64,000 nucleotides of DNA from Martelella sp. AD-3. Lineage in GTDB: Bacteria > Pseudomonadota > Alphaproteobacteria > Rhizobiales > Rhizobiaceae. The translations under genes and the position numbers were made by a program. Location of the stretch: NCBI RefSeq assembly GCF_001578105.1, contig NZ_CP014275.1, positions 1,860,001-1,924,000 of the forward strand. Reading direction: 5' to 3'. Under the pieces are notes generated by a model. That model searched no databases. It was not told where the DNA came from and worked only from the letters and a program-made list of their open reading frames with translations. This document shows positions 259 to 5,802 of this stretch, in pieces; within the stretch, counting starts at the first letter, position 1; each line of letters begins with the position of its first letter.

Positions 259-540
259 GTGAGCGCTACATTCGATAAGGTTGCCGATATCATCGCTGAA
301 ACGAGCGAAATCGACCGCGACAAGATTACGCCGGAAAGCAACACGATTGACGATCTGGGCATCGACAGTCTTGATTTCCTGGATATCGTCTTTGCCATCG
401 ACAAGGAATTCGGTATCAAGATTCCGCTCGAAAAATGGACTCAGGAAGTCAATGAGGGCAAGGTCGACGCGGATGAGTATTTCATCCTGAAGAATCTCTG
501 TGCCAAGATCGACGAGCTGAGGGCGGCCAAACAGGCCTGA
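259..540 (+). CDS. acpXL: Acyl carrier protein AcpXL for very-long-chain fatty acid of lipid A
   Basis: This 93-residue acyl carrier protein starts at a GTG. It carries the phosphopantetheine attachment motif GIDSLDF, with the modified serine at about residue 37. AcpXL-type carriers are longer than housekeeping AcpP (about 78 residues); this one has the usual AcpXL length and a C-terminal extension rich in charged residues. In rhizobia and Brucella, AcpXL carries the growing 27-hydroxyoctacosanoyl-type chain and donates it to LpxXL for transfer to lipid A. The five genes downstream on the same strand match the known order of that cluster, which supports the assignment strongly. The product acts in the cytoplasm. 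Confidence 0.95.
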
Positions 541-639: not shown

Positions 640-1128
640 ATGCTGCTCGAATATTTCCAGATGATCGATGAGGTCGTGTCCGTGGATATAGCCGCGGGCA
701 GGATCGTCGCGCGTTCGACGGTGCCGGAAGAGAGCCCGGTGTTCGAGGGGCATTTTCCCGGCATGCCGCTTGTGCCGGGCGTGCTCTTGATCGAGACCAT
801 GGCGCAGGCCTCCGGCATGCTGCTGCTGGGCGTCAACAATTGTTCGGCCATGCCCTTTCTGATGATGGTCGACAGCGCCAAGCTGCGCAGCTTCGTCGAG
901 CCGCATGCCGTGCTCGATATCGAGGCGGCGCTGGAGCACGAAGGCTCGGGCTTTGCCGTGACCAAGGCGAAGATCGCGTCTGCCGGCAAGCCGATCGCCA
1001 GCGCGCAGCTGAAATTCCGCACGCTTTCTTTTGAAGACAATGATCTGGCGCCGATCGTCCGGCGGCGAGCCGAGGAAGTCGGCCTGTTCGCCGCGATCGA
1101 GAACGGCCAGACCGTGGAAAGGTCCTGA
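640..1128 (+). CDS. fabZXL: FabZ-type 3-hydroxyacyl-ACP dehydratase of the AcpXL cluster
   Basis: This 162-residue single hot-dog-fold protein shows the FabZ active-site pattern: His38 in GHFPGMP and Glu52 in LLIETMAQ, with the 14-residue spacing expected of FabZ. It should dehydrate 3-hydroxyacyl-AcpXL intermediates during elongation of the very long lipid A acyl chain. The C-terminus is about 15-20 residues longer than housekeeping FabZ. It follows acpXL after 99 bases, and its stop at 1126-1128 is separated by a single base from the next start, so it is probably translated together with the downstream ketosynthase-like gene. Confidence 0.92.
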   Translation: MLLEYFQMIDEVVSVDIAAGRIVARSTVPEESPVFEGHFPGMPLVPGVLLIETMAQASGMLLLGVNNCSAMPFLMMVDSAKLRSFVEPHAVLDIEAALEHEGSGFAVTKAKIASAGKPIASAQLKFRTLSFEDNDLAPIVRRRAEEVGLFAAIENGQTVERS

Positions 1129-1129
1129 A

Positions 1130-2332
1130 ATGACGAAATCGGACAATGATGTCGTTGTCACCGGTATCGGGCTTGTGACCAGTTTCGGCGTCGGCCAGGC
1201 GCCGCATGTCGCGATGCTGACCGGCGGCGCGGCGCCCGATATGCGCGTCGATGACGAAATCTGCGCGCCCTATCCGGTGCATCCGCTGCCCGAGATCGAC
1301 TGGAAAGACCAGATCCCGAAGCGCGGCGACCAGCGCCAGATGGAGAACTGGCAGCGCCTCGGCGTCTATGCCGCCGGTCTGGCGCTCGATGACGCCGGCG
1401 TGAAGGGCAATGAAGACATCTGCTCGACCATGGACATGATCGTGGCTGCCGGCGGCGGCGAGCGCGACATCGCCGTCGACACGATGATCGTCAACGAGGC
1501 GCGCGAACGCTCCGACCGTGAAATCCTGCTGAATGAAAAGCTGACGACCGAACTGCGTCCGACGCTTTTTCTCGCGCAGCTTGCCAATCTGGTTGCCGGC
1601 AACATTTCGATCGTCCACAAGGTCACCGGTTCGTCGCGCACCTTCATGGGCGAGGAAGCCGCCGGCATTTCGGCTGTCGCAACCGCCTATGCCCGCATTC
1701 TCGCGGGCCAGTCGACGCATACGCTGGTCGGCGCGTCCTTCGTGGCTGAGCGGCGCGACATCCTGTTGATGTTCGAGGCCGTTCACGCGCTGTCGCGCGG
1801 CAAATGGGCGCCGCTCTGGGACAGGGCGGCCGAAGACGACGGCGGCATGGTCATGGGTTCGGCAGGCGCATTCCTCGTGCTCGAATCCCGCGCCTATGCC
1901 GAAGCGCGCGGCGCGCATATCTATGCCACGCTCTCCGGCGTTGAAGGCGATCGCGGCAAGCGCGAAGATGGAAAGTTCGAAGAACGCTTTGCCCGACTTC
2001 TTGCCGATGCCGGTTTTGAGGGCGGAACGAACGAAGCCGTCTTCTCCGGCGCCACCGGCCTCAGCGCACTGACGAAGCAGGAAGCCGATGTTCTGAAGTC
2101 CGGTTTCCCGGATACGCCGCTGCGCGGCTATACGGGCATGACCGGCCACGCCATGGAAGCCAACTTCCCCCTCGGCATCGCGCTGGCCGCGCTTTCGCTC
2201 GATGCCAAGGCGCCGGTGCCCATCTTCAATGACGGCGAGGCATCGATGTCGGCGCCGGCCGAGAAGATCGCCGTGACCACCGTCGGCCTGCAGCGCGGCG
2301 AAGGCGTTGCCGTGCTTGTCGGCGAGAAGTGA
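1130..2332 (+). CDS. fabF2XL: FabF2-like ketosynthase homologue of the AcpXL cluster, catalytic residues degenerate
   Basis: This 400-residue thiolase-fold protein starts at the ATG one base after the fabZXL stop; the frame stays open further upstream, but only inside fabZXL. It aligns with beta-ketoacyl-ACP synthase II from VVVTGIGLVTSFG to the C-terminus. The nucleophile segment reads KVTGSSRTFMG (about 165-174) where active enzymes have TACASG, so the catalytic Cys is missing. The first catalytic His motif HGTST is replaced by GATGLS (about 307-312). The second His is kept in MTGHAM (His340). By family knowledge it cannot condense acyl chains alone. I infer that it partners the intact FabF1 just downstream, as a chain-length factor partners a ketosynthase. 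The gene name follows the order in rhizobial clusters. Confidence 0.88.
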   Translation: MTKSDNDVVVTGIGLVTSFGVGQAPHVAMLTGGAAPDMRVDDEICAPYPVHPLPEIDWKDQIPKRGDQRQMENWQRLGVYAAGLALDDAGVKGNEDICSTMDMIVAAGGGERDIAVDTMIVNEARERSDREILLNEKLTTELRPTLFLAQLANLVAGNISIVHKVTGSSRTFMGEEAAGISAVATAYARILAGQSTHTLVGASFVAERRDILLMFEAVHALSRGKWAPLWDRAAEDDGGMVMGSAGAFLVLESRAYAEARGAHIYATLSGVEGDRGKREDGKFEERFARLLADAGFEGGTNEAVFSGATGLSALTKQEADVLKSGFPDTPLRGYTGMTGHAMEANFPLGIALAALSLDAKAPVPIFNDGEASMSAPAEKIAVTTVGLQRGEGVAVLVGEK

Positions 2333-2346
2333 GAGAGGATGGGCAG

Positions 2347-3627
2347 ATGAGCAAATTTACCGATCACCTTGGCCGTCCGCTGGTTGCCGTCACCGGCATG
2401 GGCGTCGTCACCTCGCTCGGGCGCGGTCTTGCGGACAACTGGGAGAAGCTGACCGGCGGCGTTTCCGGGATCCACGCGATTTCGCGCTTTCCGACCGACC
2501 ACCTGTCCACGCGCATTGCCGGCACGGTGGACTTCATCCCGTCGGAGGCAAACCCTGTCGCCCGTTCCTACGCCTTTGCCGAGGCGACGATCGAGGAAGC
2601 GCTGGAGATGGCCGGGCTTTCCGGTGACTTCGACGCGCCGCTGTTTCTCGCCGCCCCGCCGGTCGAGCCGGAATGGTCGATGCGCTTCGACCTTGCCGAC
2701 CGCGCGCCGCCGCCAAGCGAAGAGAACGACGCTTACATCCGTTTTCTCGCCGCCATGCGCGAAAAGGCAGATCCCGCCTTCCACGAGGCCGTGATGTTCG
2801 GTTCGATCTCGGAGCGGATCGCCGACCGATTCGGCACGCGAGGCCTGCCGGTGACGCTGTCGACAGCCTGTGCTTCCGGCGCCACCGCGATCCAGCTCGG
2901 CGTCGAGGCGATCCGCCAGGGCCGCACCGACAGGGCGATGACCGTTGCTACCGATGGTTCGGTGACGGCCGAGGCGCTGGTGCGCTTTTCGCTGCTGTCC
3001 GCGCTTTCCACCCAGAACGATCCGCCGGAAAAGGCCTCCAAGCCCTTCAGCAAGGATCGCGACGGCTTCGTCATCGCGGAAGGGGCGGCAACGCTCATTC
3101 TCGAATCGCTTGAAGCCGCCCATGCCCGCGGCGCGACCGTTTACGGCATCATGCGCGGCTGTGGCGAGAAGGCGGACCATTTCCACCGCACGCGGTCATC
3201 GCCCGACGGCGGACCGGCGATCGCGACCATCCGCGCGGCGCTTGAGGATGCCGGCCTCGGCATTGACAGGCTCGACTATATCAACGCCCACGGCACGTCG
3301 ACGCCGGAAAACGACAAGATGGAATATTCATCGCTCAAGGCCGTTTTCGGCGATGAGATGATGCCCTCCATCCCGCTGTCGTCAAACAAGTCGATGATCG
3401 GCCACACGCTGACGGCGGCCGGCGCGGTCGAGGCTGTTTTCTCGCTGCAGACCATGCTCACGGGCGTGCTGCCGCCGACGATCAACTATCATACCCCGGA
3501 TCCGACAATCGAGCTCGATGTCGTGCCGAATGTGAAGCGGGAGGCGAAGGTATCTTCGGTGCTTTCCAATTCGTTCGGTTTCGGCGGGCAGAATGCCTGC
3601 CTGGTGATGACGCGCGACCCCTCCTGA
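2347..3627 (+). CDS. fabF1XL: FabF1-like 3-oxoacyl-ACP synthase of the AcpXL cluster
   Basis: This 426-residue ketosynthase has an intact triad: Cys175 in STACASG, His315 in NAHGTST and His353 in MIGHTLTAAG. It should catalyse the condensation steps that lengthen AcpXL-bound acyl chains towards C26-C28. I chose the ATG at 2347 because a GAGAGGATGG Shine-Dalgarno-like stretch precedes it and because the residues from MSKFTDHLGRPLVAVTGMGV match family N-termini; a start at 2329 is possible. It lies 14 bases after the FabF2 stop. The two proteins differ at exactly the active-site positions, so this one is the probable catalytic subunit. Confidence 0.93.
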   Translation: MSKFTDHLGRPLVAVTGMGVVTSLGRGLADNWEKLTGGVSGIHAISRFPTDHLSTRIAGTVDFIPSEANPVARSYAFAEATIEEALEMAGLSGDFDAPLFLAAPPVEPEWSMRFDLADRAPPPSEENDAYIRFLAAMREKADPAFHEAVMFGSISERIADRFGTRGLPVTLSTACASGATAIQLGVEAIRQGRTDRAMTVATDGSVTAEALVRFSLLSALSTQNDPPEKASKPFSKDRDGFVIAEGAATLILESLEAAHARGATVYGIMRGCGEKADHFHRTRSSPDGGPAIATIRAALEDAGLGIDRLDYINAHGTSTPENDKMEYSSLKAVFGDEMMPSIPLSSNKSMIGHTLTAAGAVEAVFSLQTMLTGVLPPTINYHTPDPTIELDVVPNVKREAKVSSVLSNSFGFGGQNACLVMTRDPS

Positions 3628-3693: not shown

Positions 3694-4725
3694 ATGCGCG
3701 CATTGCAGCTGACAGATGACCGCAAGATCGAGCTTATGGATGTCGCGGAGCCGGAAGCGCCCGGCCCGGGCGAGGTGACGCTGCGGCCGAAGGCGGTTGC
3801 GCTCAACCATATCGACGTCTGGGGCTGGCGCGGCATGGCCTTTGCCAAGCGCAAGCTGCCGCTCACCATCGGTGCGGAAGCCTCCGGCATTGTCGAGGCA
3901 ATCGGCCCGGGCGTTTCCAATGTTCTGCCGGGCGATCTCGTCTCGATCTATGGCGCGCGGGTCTGTGGCCGTTGCAAGGCCTGCCGCGAGGGCCGGGACA
4001 ATCTGTGCGAACATGTGGGCGGCGTCCATGGTTTCCACCTGGATGGCTTCGCCCAGGACAGGATCAACATTCCCGCCCGCCAGCTCGTTGTCGCGCCGCC
4101 CGGCGTCGACGCGATTGCCGCGGCGCTGGCGCCGGTCACCTTCGGCACGGTGGAGCACATGCTGTTCGACAATGCGAAGCTGCAGCCGGGCGAGACCATT
4201 CTGGTGCATGCCGGCGGTTCAGGTATCGGATCCGCCGCGATCCAGCTTGCAAAGAAAACGGGCTGCACGGTGATCACCACGGTCGGATCAGAAGACAAGA
4301 TGGAAAAGGCGCGCGCGCTTGGCGCCGATCATGTGATCAACTATCGCGAGGACCGTTTCGAGGGCGTCGTGCGCAAGCTGACGAAGAAGAAGGGCGTCGA
4401 CGTCGTCTTCGAACATGTCGGCGCGGATACCTGGGCCGGTTCCATGCTGTCGATGAAACGCGGCGGCCGGTTGGTGACCTGCGGTTCGACCTCGGGCGTT
4501 TCCACCAACGTCAATCTGATGATGCTGTTCCAGCAGCAGCTGAAATTCTTCGGCTCATTCGGCTGCCGGATGGAGAACATGGCGGACGCCATGCAGAAGA
4601 TGGCGCAGGGCGTCGTTCACCCGGTCATCGATACGCTTGTCGATTTCGACGGCATCGACAAGGCGCTGGAGCGGATGGAAAGCCGCCAGGTCTTCGGCAA
4701 GATCGTGCTCCGGATCGGTGACTGA
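3694..4725 (+). CDS. adh2XL: Zinc-binding alcohol dehydrogenase of the AcpXL cluster
   Basis: This 343-residue medium-chain dehydrogenase/reductase has the structural-zinc cysteines Cys91, Cys94, Cys97 and Cys105 in CGRCKACREGRDNLC. A Rossmann nucleotide-binding stretch follows (VHAGGSGIGSAAIQLAKK). It occupies the fifth position of the acpXL cluster, as adh2XL does in rhizobia. Its exact step is not established by sequence; an enoyl reductase or an oxidoreductase acting on the omega-1 hydroxyl of the long acyl chain are both plausible. It lies 66 bases after fabF1XL on the same strand. A mosaic repeat and a perfect hairpin separate it from lpxXL. Confidence 0.9.
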   Translation: MRALQLTDDRKIELMDVAEPEAPGPGEVTLRPKAVALNHIDVWGWRGMAFAKRKLPLTIGAEASGIVEAIGPGVSNVLPGDLVSIYGARVCGRCKACREGRDNLCEHVGGVHGFHLDGFAQDRINIPARQLVVAPPGVDAIAAALAPVTFGTVEHMLFDNAKLQPGETILVHAGGSGIGSAAIQLAKKTGCTVITTVGSEDKMEKARALGADHVINYREDRFEGVVRKLTKKKGVDVVFEHVGADTWAGSMLSMKRGGRLVTCGSTSGVSTNVNLMMLFQQQLKFFGSFGCRMENMADAMQKMAQGVVHPVIDTLVDFDGIDKALERMESRQVFGKIVLRIGD

Positions 4726-4875: not shown

Positions 4876-5802
4876 GTGAAATCCTCCATCACCCGCATCG
4901 TGCTCAAGGCCCGACAGTTCCAGCAATGGCTGATAGCCTATCTGGTATTCGGGCTTCTCTCCGTGATGAAGCTGTTTCCGGCGGATGGGTCGATCCGTTT
5001 TGCCGACTGGGCGATGCGCAGGATCGGCCCTTTCACCGGCCGGCACAGCCTGGTGCTGGAGAACCTGCACTGCGCCTTTCCCGAGAAGGACGAGGCGGAA
5101 ATCCGGCGTATTGCGCTAGCCAGCTGGGGCCATATCGGCCGGCTTGCGGCGGAATATGTGTTCCTTGACGAGCTTTTCGACTTCGACCCGCAAAAGCCGG
5201 ACGCCGGACGCATCGAGGTGGCGGGCGTGGAGCGCTTCATGGCCCTTCTGGCGCTCGACAGGCCCTTTATCGTGTTTACCGCCCATACGGCGAATTTCGA
5301 GCTGCTTCCGGTCGCCGCCGCGTCCTTCGGACTCGACGTCTCGGTTCTCTTCCGCCCTCCGAACAATCCCTATATCGCCGAAAAGGTCTTCCGCTTTCGC
5401 CGCAAGCGCATGGGCGAACTCGTGCCCTCCCATGCGGGCTCCGCCTTTGCGCTGGCAAGCGCGCTCGACGCGGGCAGGGGGGTTGGCGTCCTTGTCGACC
5501 AGAAGTTCAAGCGCGGTTCGCCGTCGTCCTATTTCGGCCAGGAGGTGCGCACCAATCCGCTTCTCGCCAAGCTTGCGCGCCAGTTCGACTGCAAGATATT
5601 TCCCGCGCGCTGCATCAGGCTGCCGGACAACCGCTTCCGCCTCGAACTCGAAGAGGAAATGCCGCTTCCCCGGACGGAAAAGGGCGCGGTGGACGTTGCC
5701 GCCACGGCCCAGGCGCTGAACGACAAGGTGGAAAGCTGGGTGCGCGAATACCCGGAGCAATGGCTCTGGTACCACGACCGCTGGGCGCGCCGCAAACGAT
5801 AG
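4876..5802 (+). CDS. lpxXL: Lipid A very-long-chain acyltransferase (LpxXL/HtrB family)
   Basis: This 308-residue member of the LpxL/HtrB lysophospholipid acyltransferase family starts at GTG 4876. A hydrophobic N-terminal membrane segment (about residues 18-34) is followed by the catalytic HX4E motif HTANFE (His137-Glu142). It should transfer the AcpXL-bound very-long-chain hydroxy fatty acid to lipid A at the inner face of the cytoplasmic membrane. Position as the last gene of the cluster matches lpxXL (also called msbB-like) in rhizobia. The start is 150 bases after adh2XL, beyond a mosaic repeat and a hairpin, so it may have partly separate expression. Confidence 0.92.
   Translation: MKSSITRIVLKARQFQQWLIAYLVFGLLSVMKLFPADGSIRFADWAMRRIGPFTGRHSLVLENLHCAFPEKDEAEIRRIALASWGHIGRLAAEYVFLDELFDFDPQKPDAGRIEVAGVERFMALLALDRPFIVFTAHTANFELLPVAAASFGLDVSVLFRPPNNPYIAEKVFRFRRKRMGELVPSHAGSAFALASALDAGRGVGVLVDQKFKRGSPSSYFGQEVRTNPLLAKLARQFDCKIFPARCIRLPDNRFRLELEEEMPLPRTEKGAVDVAATAQALNDKVESWVREYPEQWLWYHDRWARRKR

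Follow-up and report, generated by a model that had tools for sequence, protein, structure and literature searches.

The acpXL–lpxXL gene set is the published cluster for the very-long-chain fatty acids (VLCFAs) of lipid A, and its two adjacent ketosynthase genes raise a question: what is the role of FabF2XL, a ketosynthase-fold protein that lacks catalytic residues and is encoded directly upstream of FabF1XL, which has them? We addressed this in a 64,000-nucleotide stretch of the Martelella sp. AD-3 genome (contig NZ_CP014275.1, positions 1,860,001 to 1,924,000), hereafter the window. FabF2XL is called a ketosynthase in papers and databases. The accessible text of one report names both proteins 3-oxoacyl-acyl carrier protein (ACP) synthases (PMC11901934), and that of another, fatty acid elongation proteins (PMC5613085). 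FabF2XL is a member of the NCBIfam family NF005084 (PRK06519, 'beta-ketoacyl-ACP synthase'), a name that implies an activity which the members examined here cannot have through the usual mechanism. Because it lacks catalytic residues yet has been retained beside an active FabF1XL, our results suggest that FabF2XL is a helper subunit rather than an enzyme. We think it likely that the two proteins together make up a single heterodimeric ketosynthase for chain elongation, devoted to the acyl carrier protein AcpXL, with FabF2XL as a pseudoenzyme.

FabF2XL has lost catalytic residues that FabF1XL retains

The residue register was set by aligning FabF2XL with FabF1XL and with the housekeeping FabF of the same genome. 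FabF1XL keeps Cys175, His315, Lys348 and His353 together with the GFGG gate, so that all three catalytic residues are present as the first-pass annotation of this DNA had stated, and the first His and the Lys occur in all 294 of its relatives with letters at these positions. In FabF2XL, the residue aligned with Cys175 is Glu176, within the motif GEEAAG; Gly307 replaces the first His, Thr335 aligns with Lys348, and His340 is retained. The Cys-His-His triad plus Lys that defines an active β-ketoacyl-ACP synthase (KAS) I or II is therefore incomplete. FabF2XL has the fold of FabF (KAS II) and partly retains its ACP-docking residues, whereas the catalytic Cys, the first His, the Lys and the GFGG gate are absent. 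The annotation had located the nucleophile loss at SSRTF; the loss is real, but residues 168–172 form the strand preceding the GEEAAG site. Its placement of GATGLS at the HGTST position, with loss of the first His and retention of the second, was correct. The losses of the active-site Lys and of the GFGG gate had gone unmentioned there. As first reported, the observation is thus partly confirmed.

The same replacements were found throughout the family. FabF2XL loci were collected from sampled genomes and from the best 80 of at least 587 confirmed stretches of named genomes. Matches below 130 bits, frames shorter than 150 residues, and loci L001–L007 and L178–L183, which are not FabF2XL loci of other genomes, were excluded, and removal of copies with identical last 200 residues left 299 distinct sequences. 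Glu occupies the nucleophile position in 298 of these and Asp in the remaining one, and Glu175 is present in 297. Loss of Cys and of the first His, which the annotation had proposed to check by aligning many homologues, is universal in the relatives examined. Homologues carrying the Cys, which the annotation had named as a refutation, did not occur among the 299. The second His is missing from 48 of the 297 sequences with letters there, and many columns are invariant among 67 relatives. Ratios of nonsynonymous to synonymous substitution rates (dN/dS) were 0.08–0.29 for FabF2XL and 0.06–0.27 for FabF1XL (four pairwise comparisons each, with dS near or above 1), and those for FabF2XL indicate purifying selection. 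With Glu or Asp in every sequence and dN/dS this low, the residue change is not a product of chance or decay.

Published genetics bear on function. As far as the available text of PMC11901934 goes, insertion in fabF2XL leaves the lipid A of A. fabrum devoid of VLCFA, which fabF2XL alone brings back in part, so fabF2XL is needed. For Bradyrhizobium ORS278, the accessible portion of PMC5613085 states that neither fabF1XL nor fabF2XL mutants could be obtained, and cites essentiality by transposon sequencing in Rhodopseudomonas.

FabF2XL and FabF1XL occur as a pair

That fabF2XL and fabF1XL form an obligate pair is well supported. At 295 of the 299 loci, FabF1XL is encoded downstream in the same orientation, with its stop within 2.5 kb; the intervening gap has a median of 12 bases, is at most 50 at 243 of these 295 loci, and exceeds 200 at only four. 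Two of the four loci without an adjoining FabF1XL are contig ends. At the other two (L059 in G043 and L284 in G796, both draft genomes), FabF2XL is neighboured by unrelated frames and a full FabF1XL is encoded elsewhere in the genome; rearrangement or misassembly could be the cause.

Of 249 genomes sampled from the order, 66 carry FabF2XL, and a by-eye comparison of the lists showed that these same 66 carry FabF1XL. The boundary of the FabF2XL family is sharp in that sample, where no match above the cut-off scored under 332 bits and the best of the remainder reached 73.5. FabF2XL was present in 15 of 289 genomes of a class sample, 13 of them outside the order, and in 29 of 299 genomes of a phylum sample, all 29 inside the class (kinship is unlisted for 250 of the genomes without a match). 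The largest open frame among the FabF2XL matches listed has 696 residues, too short for a fusion.

Pairs also occur away from the rest of the cluster. Three loci show no acpXL, fabZ or lpxXL on the 14–16 kb read: one (L338) is part of a Bradyrhizobium plasmid predicted to be conjugative, and the others (L339 and L340) are second copies in their genomes. The plasmid carries a cassette (L338:6204–9507) with an S-adenosylmethionine-dependent methyltransferase, by annotation, followed by FabF2XL and FabF1XL and with no acpXL or fabZ; a cassette judged similar by eye is present at L339:6073–9349 (G854). Four genomes of one genus have two diverged FabF2XL–FabF1XL pairs (L043, L044, L049, and L048 with L075), one inside the acpXL–fabZ cluster and the other outside it; at L075 the second FabF1XL is cut by a contig end.

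FabF docking positions and the active site are conserved on opposite proteins

According to the part of PMC7138838 available, most ACP contacts in crosslinked E. coli AcpP–FabF are made by the monomer opposite the one whose Cys reacts. A FabF1XL that works with FabF2XL should accordingly have its docking surface on FabF2XL. We compared the positional entropy of 11 of the 12 FabF docking positions named in the available text of PMC7138838 (T270 was left out) with that of random sets. In FabF2XL the mean was 0.87 bits against 1.64 for random sets, only 0.8% of which were as low. In FabF1XL it was 2.41 bits against 1.22, with 0.01% of sets as high, and it stayed between 1.80 and 2.48 across 81 register shifts. 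Six active-site positions, in contrast, are invariant in FabF1XL, so the two proteins differ as to which is conserved, the active site or the docking patch. When the pattern was instead slid along each protein, the corresponding values were 11% for FabF2XL and 0.7% for FabF1XL, which makes loss of the docking patch in FabF1XL the firmer half of the result. An earlier version with 13 positions gave 0.5% and 0%, respectively, and 0.3% and 0% with the 30 most diverse rows; FabF positions 63 and 64 had been added to it after basic residues were noticed there in FabF2XL, whereas the 11-position set contains published positions only. Since the invariant FabF2XL columns had already been seen, the test is partly after the fact.

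Two parts of the FabF2XL patch are listed in Table 1. Lys64, Arg65 and Arg69 are Lys or Arg at weighted frequencies of 0.99, 0.97 and 0.99 in the family, and Leu142, Arg143, Pro144 and Thr145 are kept at 0.97, 0.99, 1.00 and 1.00. For comparison we used 31 housekeeping FabF proteins, presumably homodimers (30 loci from 59 genomes with a match, plus the window genome's own). In these proteins K65, R68, K69, R127 and K128 are always basic, and the same chain has an invariant active site; the whole patch is only weakly more conserved than chance (10% with 11 positions, 27% with 13). FabF1XL, otherwise strongly conserved, is highly variable at residues 60–80 (2524–2586) and 110–150 (2674–2796), stretches that correspond to the ACP-binding region of FabF and its approach to the dimer face.

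Comparison with chain-length factors

The first-pass annotation had likened the two genes to the ketosynthase (KS) and chain-length factor (CLF) pairs of type II polyketide synthases. We compared FabF2XL with nine CLFs and eight KS partners found by similarity to the actinorhodin CLF or to FabF2XL, a set that does not span all CLFs. As in the actinorhodin KS–CLF (1tqy), an active ketosynthase stands beside a full-length paralogue without a nucleophile and the genes adjoin, and CLFs, like FabF2XL, have lost both the Cys and the first His. The two also share an acidic residue immediately ahead of the nucleophile site: FabF2XL reads GEEAAG where the actinorhodin CLF reads AEQAGG and one other CLF GEQAAG, and seven CLFs have Glu or Asp there. 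The nucleophile itself, however, is replaced by Gln in eight CLFs and Gly in one, but by Glu in all 19 FabF2XL rows. The first His is Asp in the nine CLFs and Gly, Ala or Ser in FabF2XL; the active-site Lys is kept in all nine but absent from the 19 rows; and the second His is Arg in the nine CLFs but mostly His in FabF2XL. Gene order is reversed, with FabF2XL preceding FabF1XL whereas KS precedes CLF at eight CLF loci. The pathways differ as well, that of FabF1XL and FabF2XL being a reducing one that makes fatty acid for lipid A. KS–CLF pairs in a reducing, fatty-acid-like cycle are nevertheless found in ishigamide (6kxd) and aryl polyene (ApeO–ApeC) synthesis. ApeC has roughly half the length and a single thiolase domain in the account available (PMC8358021), whereas FabF2XL keeps both domains.

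FabF2XL may be a separate deep branch from the type II polyketide synthase CLFs. On a quick tree of 60 rows with a midpoint root, FabF2XL, FabF1XL, CLF and KS-alpha each fell on one side of a branch, which the KAS group did not. Grouping of FabF2XL with CLF had a support of 74 by the Shimodaira–Hasegawa-like approximate likelihood ratio test, and grouping with FabF1XL was not rejected by the approximately unbiased test (p-AU 0.73). The FabF2XL stem is the longest in the tree, at 2.05 changes per column to the root. Because the residues differ from those of CLFs and the tree does not join the two firmly, the catalytic losses of FabF2XL may well be convergent with those of CLFs. What stands of the proposed pairing is the obligate association with fabF1XL; strict CLF identity does not, given Glu rather than Gln, the reversed gene order and no demonstrated common clade. 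The earlier interpretation is thus partly supported: judged from sequence, FabF2XL may work like a CLF, while its membership of that class is doubtful, one defining residue being different. A tblastn search with FabF2XL against plasmids, which was not used as evidence, had CLFs in six of the eight rows outside the family among the 15 of 126 records listed, where the best E-value outside the family was that of an archaeal ketosynthase.

Structure prediction and coevolution

An AlphaFold2 model of FabF2XL has a full ketosynthase fold with a mean predicted local distance difference test (pLDDT) score of 81.7, and is weak at residues 107–115 and 140–174; the latter is the part expected to meet a partner, and no conclusion was drawn from it. 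The first Foldseek match was 6kxd_A, a chain named Ketosynthase, and FabF structures matched as well or better, so that structural matches of the model do not separate CLF from FabF. The FabF1XL model was poor (mean pLDDT 51.5) and was not used. Coevolution was assessed by mean-field direct coupling analysis (DCA) with a reduced alphabet on 293 paired rows, equivalent to an effective number of 104 at 80% identity, from which rows with more than 12% gaps had been dropped. The highest-ranking inter-protein pair, FabF2XL 209 with FabF1XL 131, failed phylogeny-corrected co-substitution counting and was discarded. FabF2XL 275 with FabF1XL 156 ranked high in both analyses (13 co-changes, 3.7 expected) and, among about 88,000 pairs, was not counted as significant.

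A proposed mechanism and its alternatives

We propose that FabF1XL and FabF2XL would associate as a heterodimer that elongates the AcpXL-bound chain towards the C26–C30 chain of lipid A. FabF1XL would carry the sole active site. FabF2XL, its nucleophile position filled by Glu176, would act as a pseudoenzyme whose surface offers AcpXL a docking platform in trans, beside the active site of FabF1XL on the far side of the dimer axis, and whose interface side would probably form part of the acyl tunnel. From the sequence comparisons, a physical heterodimer is likely, and docking of AcpXL in trans on FabF2XL is somewhat favoured; a direct part for FabF2XL in setting chain length is a tentative proposal, towards which we are slightly sceptical. 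The conservation pattern points at least as much to AcpXL docking as to chain-length setting; docking is the role with some positive evidence here, and chain-length control is the other plausible one. We are close to evenly divided, with a slight lean to the negative, over the broadest form of the proposal: a KS/pseudo-KS heterodimer that evolved independently and divides its tasks completely (chemistry in FabF1XL, which has lost docking; docking and part of the tunnel in FabF2XL), constituting a self-contained mobile module that runs the alphaproteobacterial lipid A VLCFA pathway.

Neither coevolution nor structure prediction gave support for a heterodimer of this kind. Against docking on FabF2XL, its equivalents of FabF R127, K128 and R206 are not basic, the conserved basic residues of FabF2XL being instead K64, R65, R69 and R143. 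The lack of coevolutionary support would also suit an arrangement in which FabF1XL is a homodimer and FabF2XL an independent scaffold or AcpXL-handling protein, either as a homodimer or as a partner of FabZXL or LpxXL, as would the conserved surface that FabF2XL has of its own and the unlinked genes in two draft genomes. We nonetheless consider such an arrangement unlikely: both families have an identical genome distribution in the order sample, pairs occur without the other cluster genes, and a homodimer that used the FabF1XL docking patch would hardly leave it hypervariable. A strict chain-length factor, which mainly measures the chain through interface residues that close or open the FabF1XL tunnel, is a real contender, if one we put a little below even. 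Like CLFs, FabF2XL has lost the Cys and the first His. The stretch corresponding to FabF Ser106–Pro131, which we take to hold the CLF positions that determine chain length, has 36–38 residues in FabF2XL versus 26 in FabF and CLF, and Gly stands at the FabF Ile108 position in 17 of 19 FabF2XL rows. No residue here was linked to chain length, however, and in the available text of PMC11901934 the A. fabrum mutant lacks the fatty acid rather than making a shorter one, a phenotype to which lowered fabF1XL expression may also contribute.

That FabF2XL primes the pathway as a KSQ-like decarboxylase acting on malonyl-AcpXL is very improbable. KSQ-type decarboxylases have Gln at the Cys position and keep both His, and both His are required for decarboxylation in ketosynthases. 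The near-invariant carboxylate of FabF2XL presumably resembles that Cys-to-Gln change, but it is Glu and not Gln, the first His occurs in none of 299 relatives (three have gaps), the second is not always kept and the Lys is gone; the candidate was rejected. For Proteobacteria, the part of PMC8666670 available reports a malonyl-ACP decarboxylase activity by which fatty acid synthesis is promoted. The long stem branch might suggest a decaying duplicate with no function left. This can be practically dismissed, in view of the invariant columns, the key positions kept in 299 relatives, the low dN/dS and the Bradyrhizobium mutants that were not obtained (accessible text of PMC5613085), and it is refuted by the A. 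fabrum mutant phenotype (available text of PMC11901934).

Should FabF2XL prove to be the partner without catalysis in a heterodimer, the biochemistry of this fatty acid, which matters for symbiosis and for the strength of the envelope, would have to be redrawn, and assays of FabF1XL or FabF2XL as single proteins would be expected to fail. KS–CLF logic would enter membrane lipid synthesis, and the AcpXL docking site would be clearly predicted. New here is the reciprocal pattern in which docking positions are conserved in FabF2XL and hypervariable in FabF1XL and the active site is the reverse. The literature searched states no FabF1XL–FabF2XL heterodimer or chain-length factor for the VLCFA pathway; an earlier mention is possible, S. 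meliloti cluster-mutant work lying outside that search.

Organization of the acpXL–lpxXL cluster

The first 5.8 kb of the window hold six genes in one direction and in the same order as the A. fabrum cluster, which places the locus among the VLCFA clusters (Table 1). The coordinates of fabF2XL and fabF1XL given by the first-pass annotation, and the 14 bases between the fabF2XL stop and the fabF1XL ATG, were confirmed.

Table 1. Genes of the cluster and codons discussed in the text (positions in the window).
Feature	Position	Strand	Remarks
acpXL, dedicated acyl carrier protein	259..540	+	NCBIfam NF005079, 182.6 bits vs cut-off 83
fabZXL, 3-hydroxyacyl-ACP dehydratase-like	640..1128	+	Pfam FabA, 66 bits vs cut-off 23; FabZ models under their cut-offs
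fabF2XL, predicted catalytically dead ketosynthase-fold subunit, 400 aa	1130..2332	+	NCBIfam NF005084, 583.3 bits vs curated cut-off 320
Lys64, Arg65, Arg69 codons	1319..1336	+	Basic patch at or beside FabF docking residues K65, R68, K69
Leu142-Arg143-Pro144-Thr145 codons	1553..1564	+	Equivalents of FabF I129–F132, hydrophobic ACP-docking patch
Glu175-Glu176 codons	1652..1657	+	Glu176 (1655–1657) occupies the nucleophile Cys position
Gly307 codon, replaces first catalytic His	2048..2050	+	His in none of 299 relatives (3 with gaps)
His340 codon, second His kept	2147..2149	+	His in 249 of 297 relatives with letters
fabF1XL, catalytically complete ketosynthase, 426 aa	2347..3627	+	NCBIfam NF005076, 734.8 bits vs cut-off 629
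Cys175 codon, FabF1XL nucleophile	2869..2871	+	Cys in 294 of 295 relatives; the remaining one reads X
adh2XL, zinc-type dehydrogenase/reductase-like	3694..4725	+	Name from position in published clusters
lpxXL, acyltransferase to lipid A	4876..5802	+	NCBIfam NF005120, 462.5 bits vs cut-off 273

No NCBIfam model exceeded its cut-off for adh2XL among the 25 listed. A Pfam scan of FabF2XL returned PF00109 only, with no PF02801 at E ≤ 0.001. Long open frames on the opposite strand, 833–2149 (−, 438 aa) and 2128–3186 (−, 352 aa), face fabZXL, fabF2XL and fabF1XL and are probably shadow frames of G+C-rich codons. At seven loci (L016 and L020–L025), fabF2XL follows acpXL with no fabZXL match in between, an arrangement that agrees with a published remark that M. 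loti is without fabZXL.
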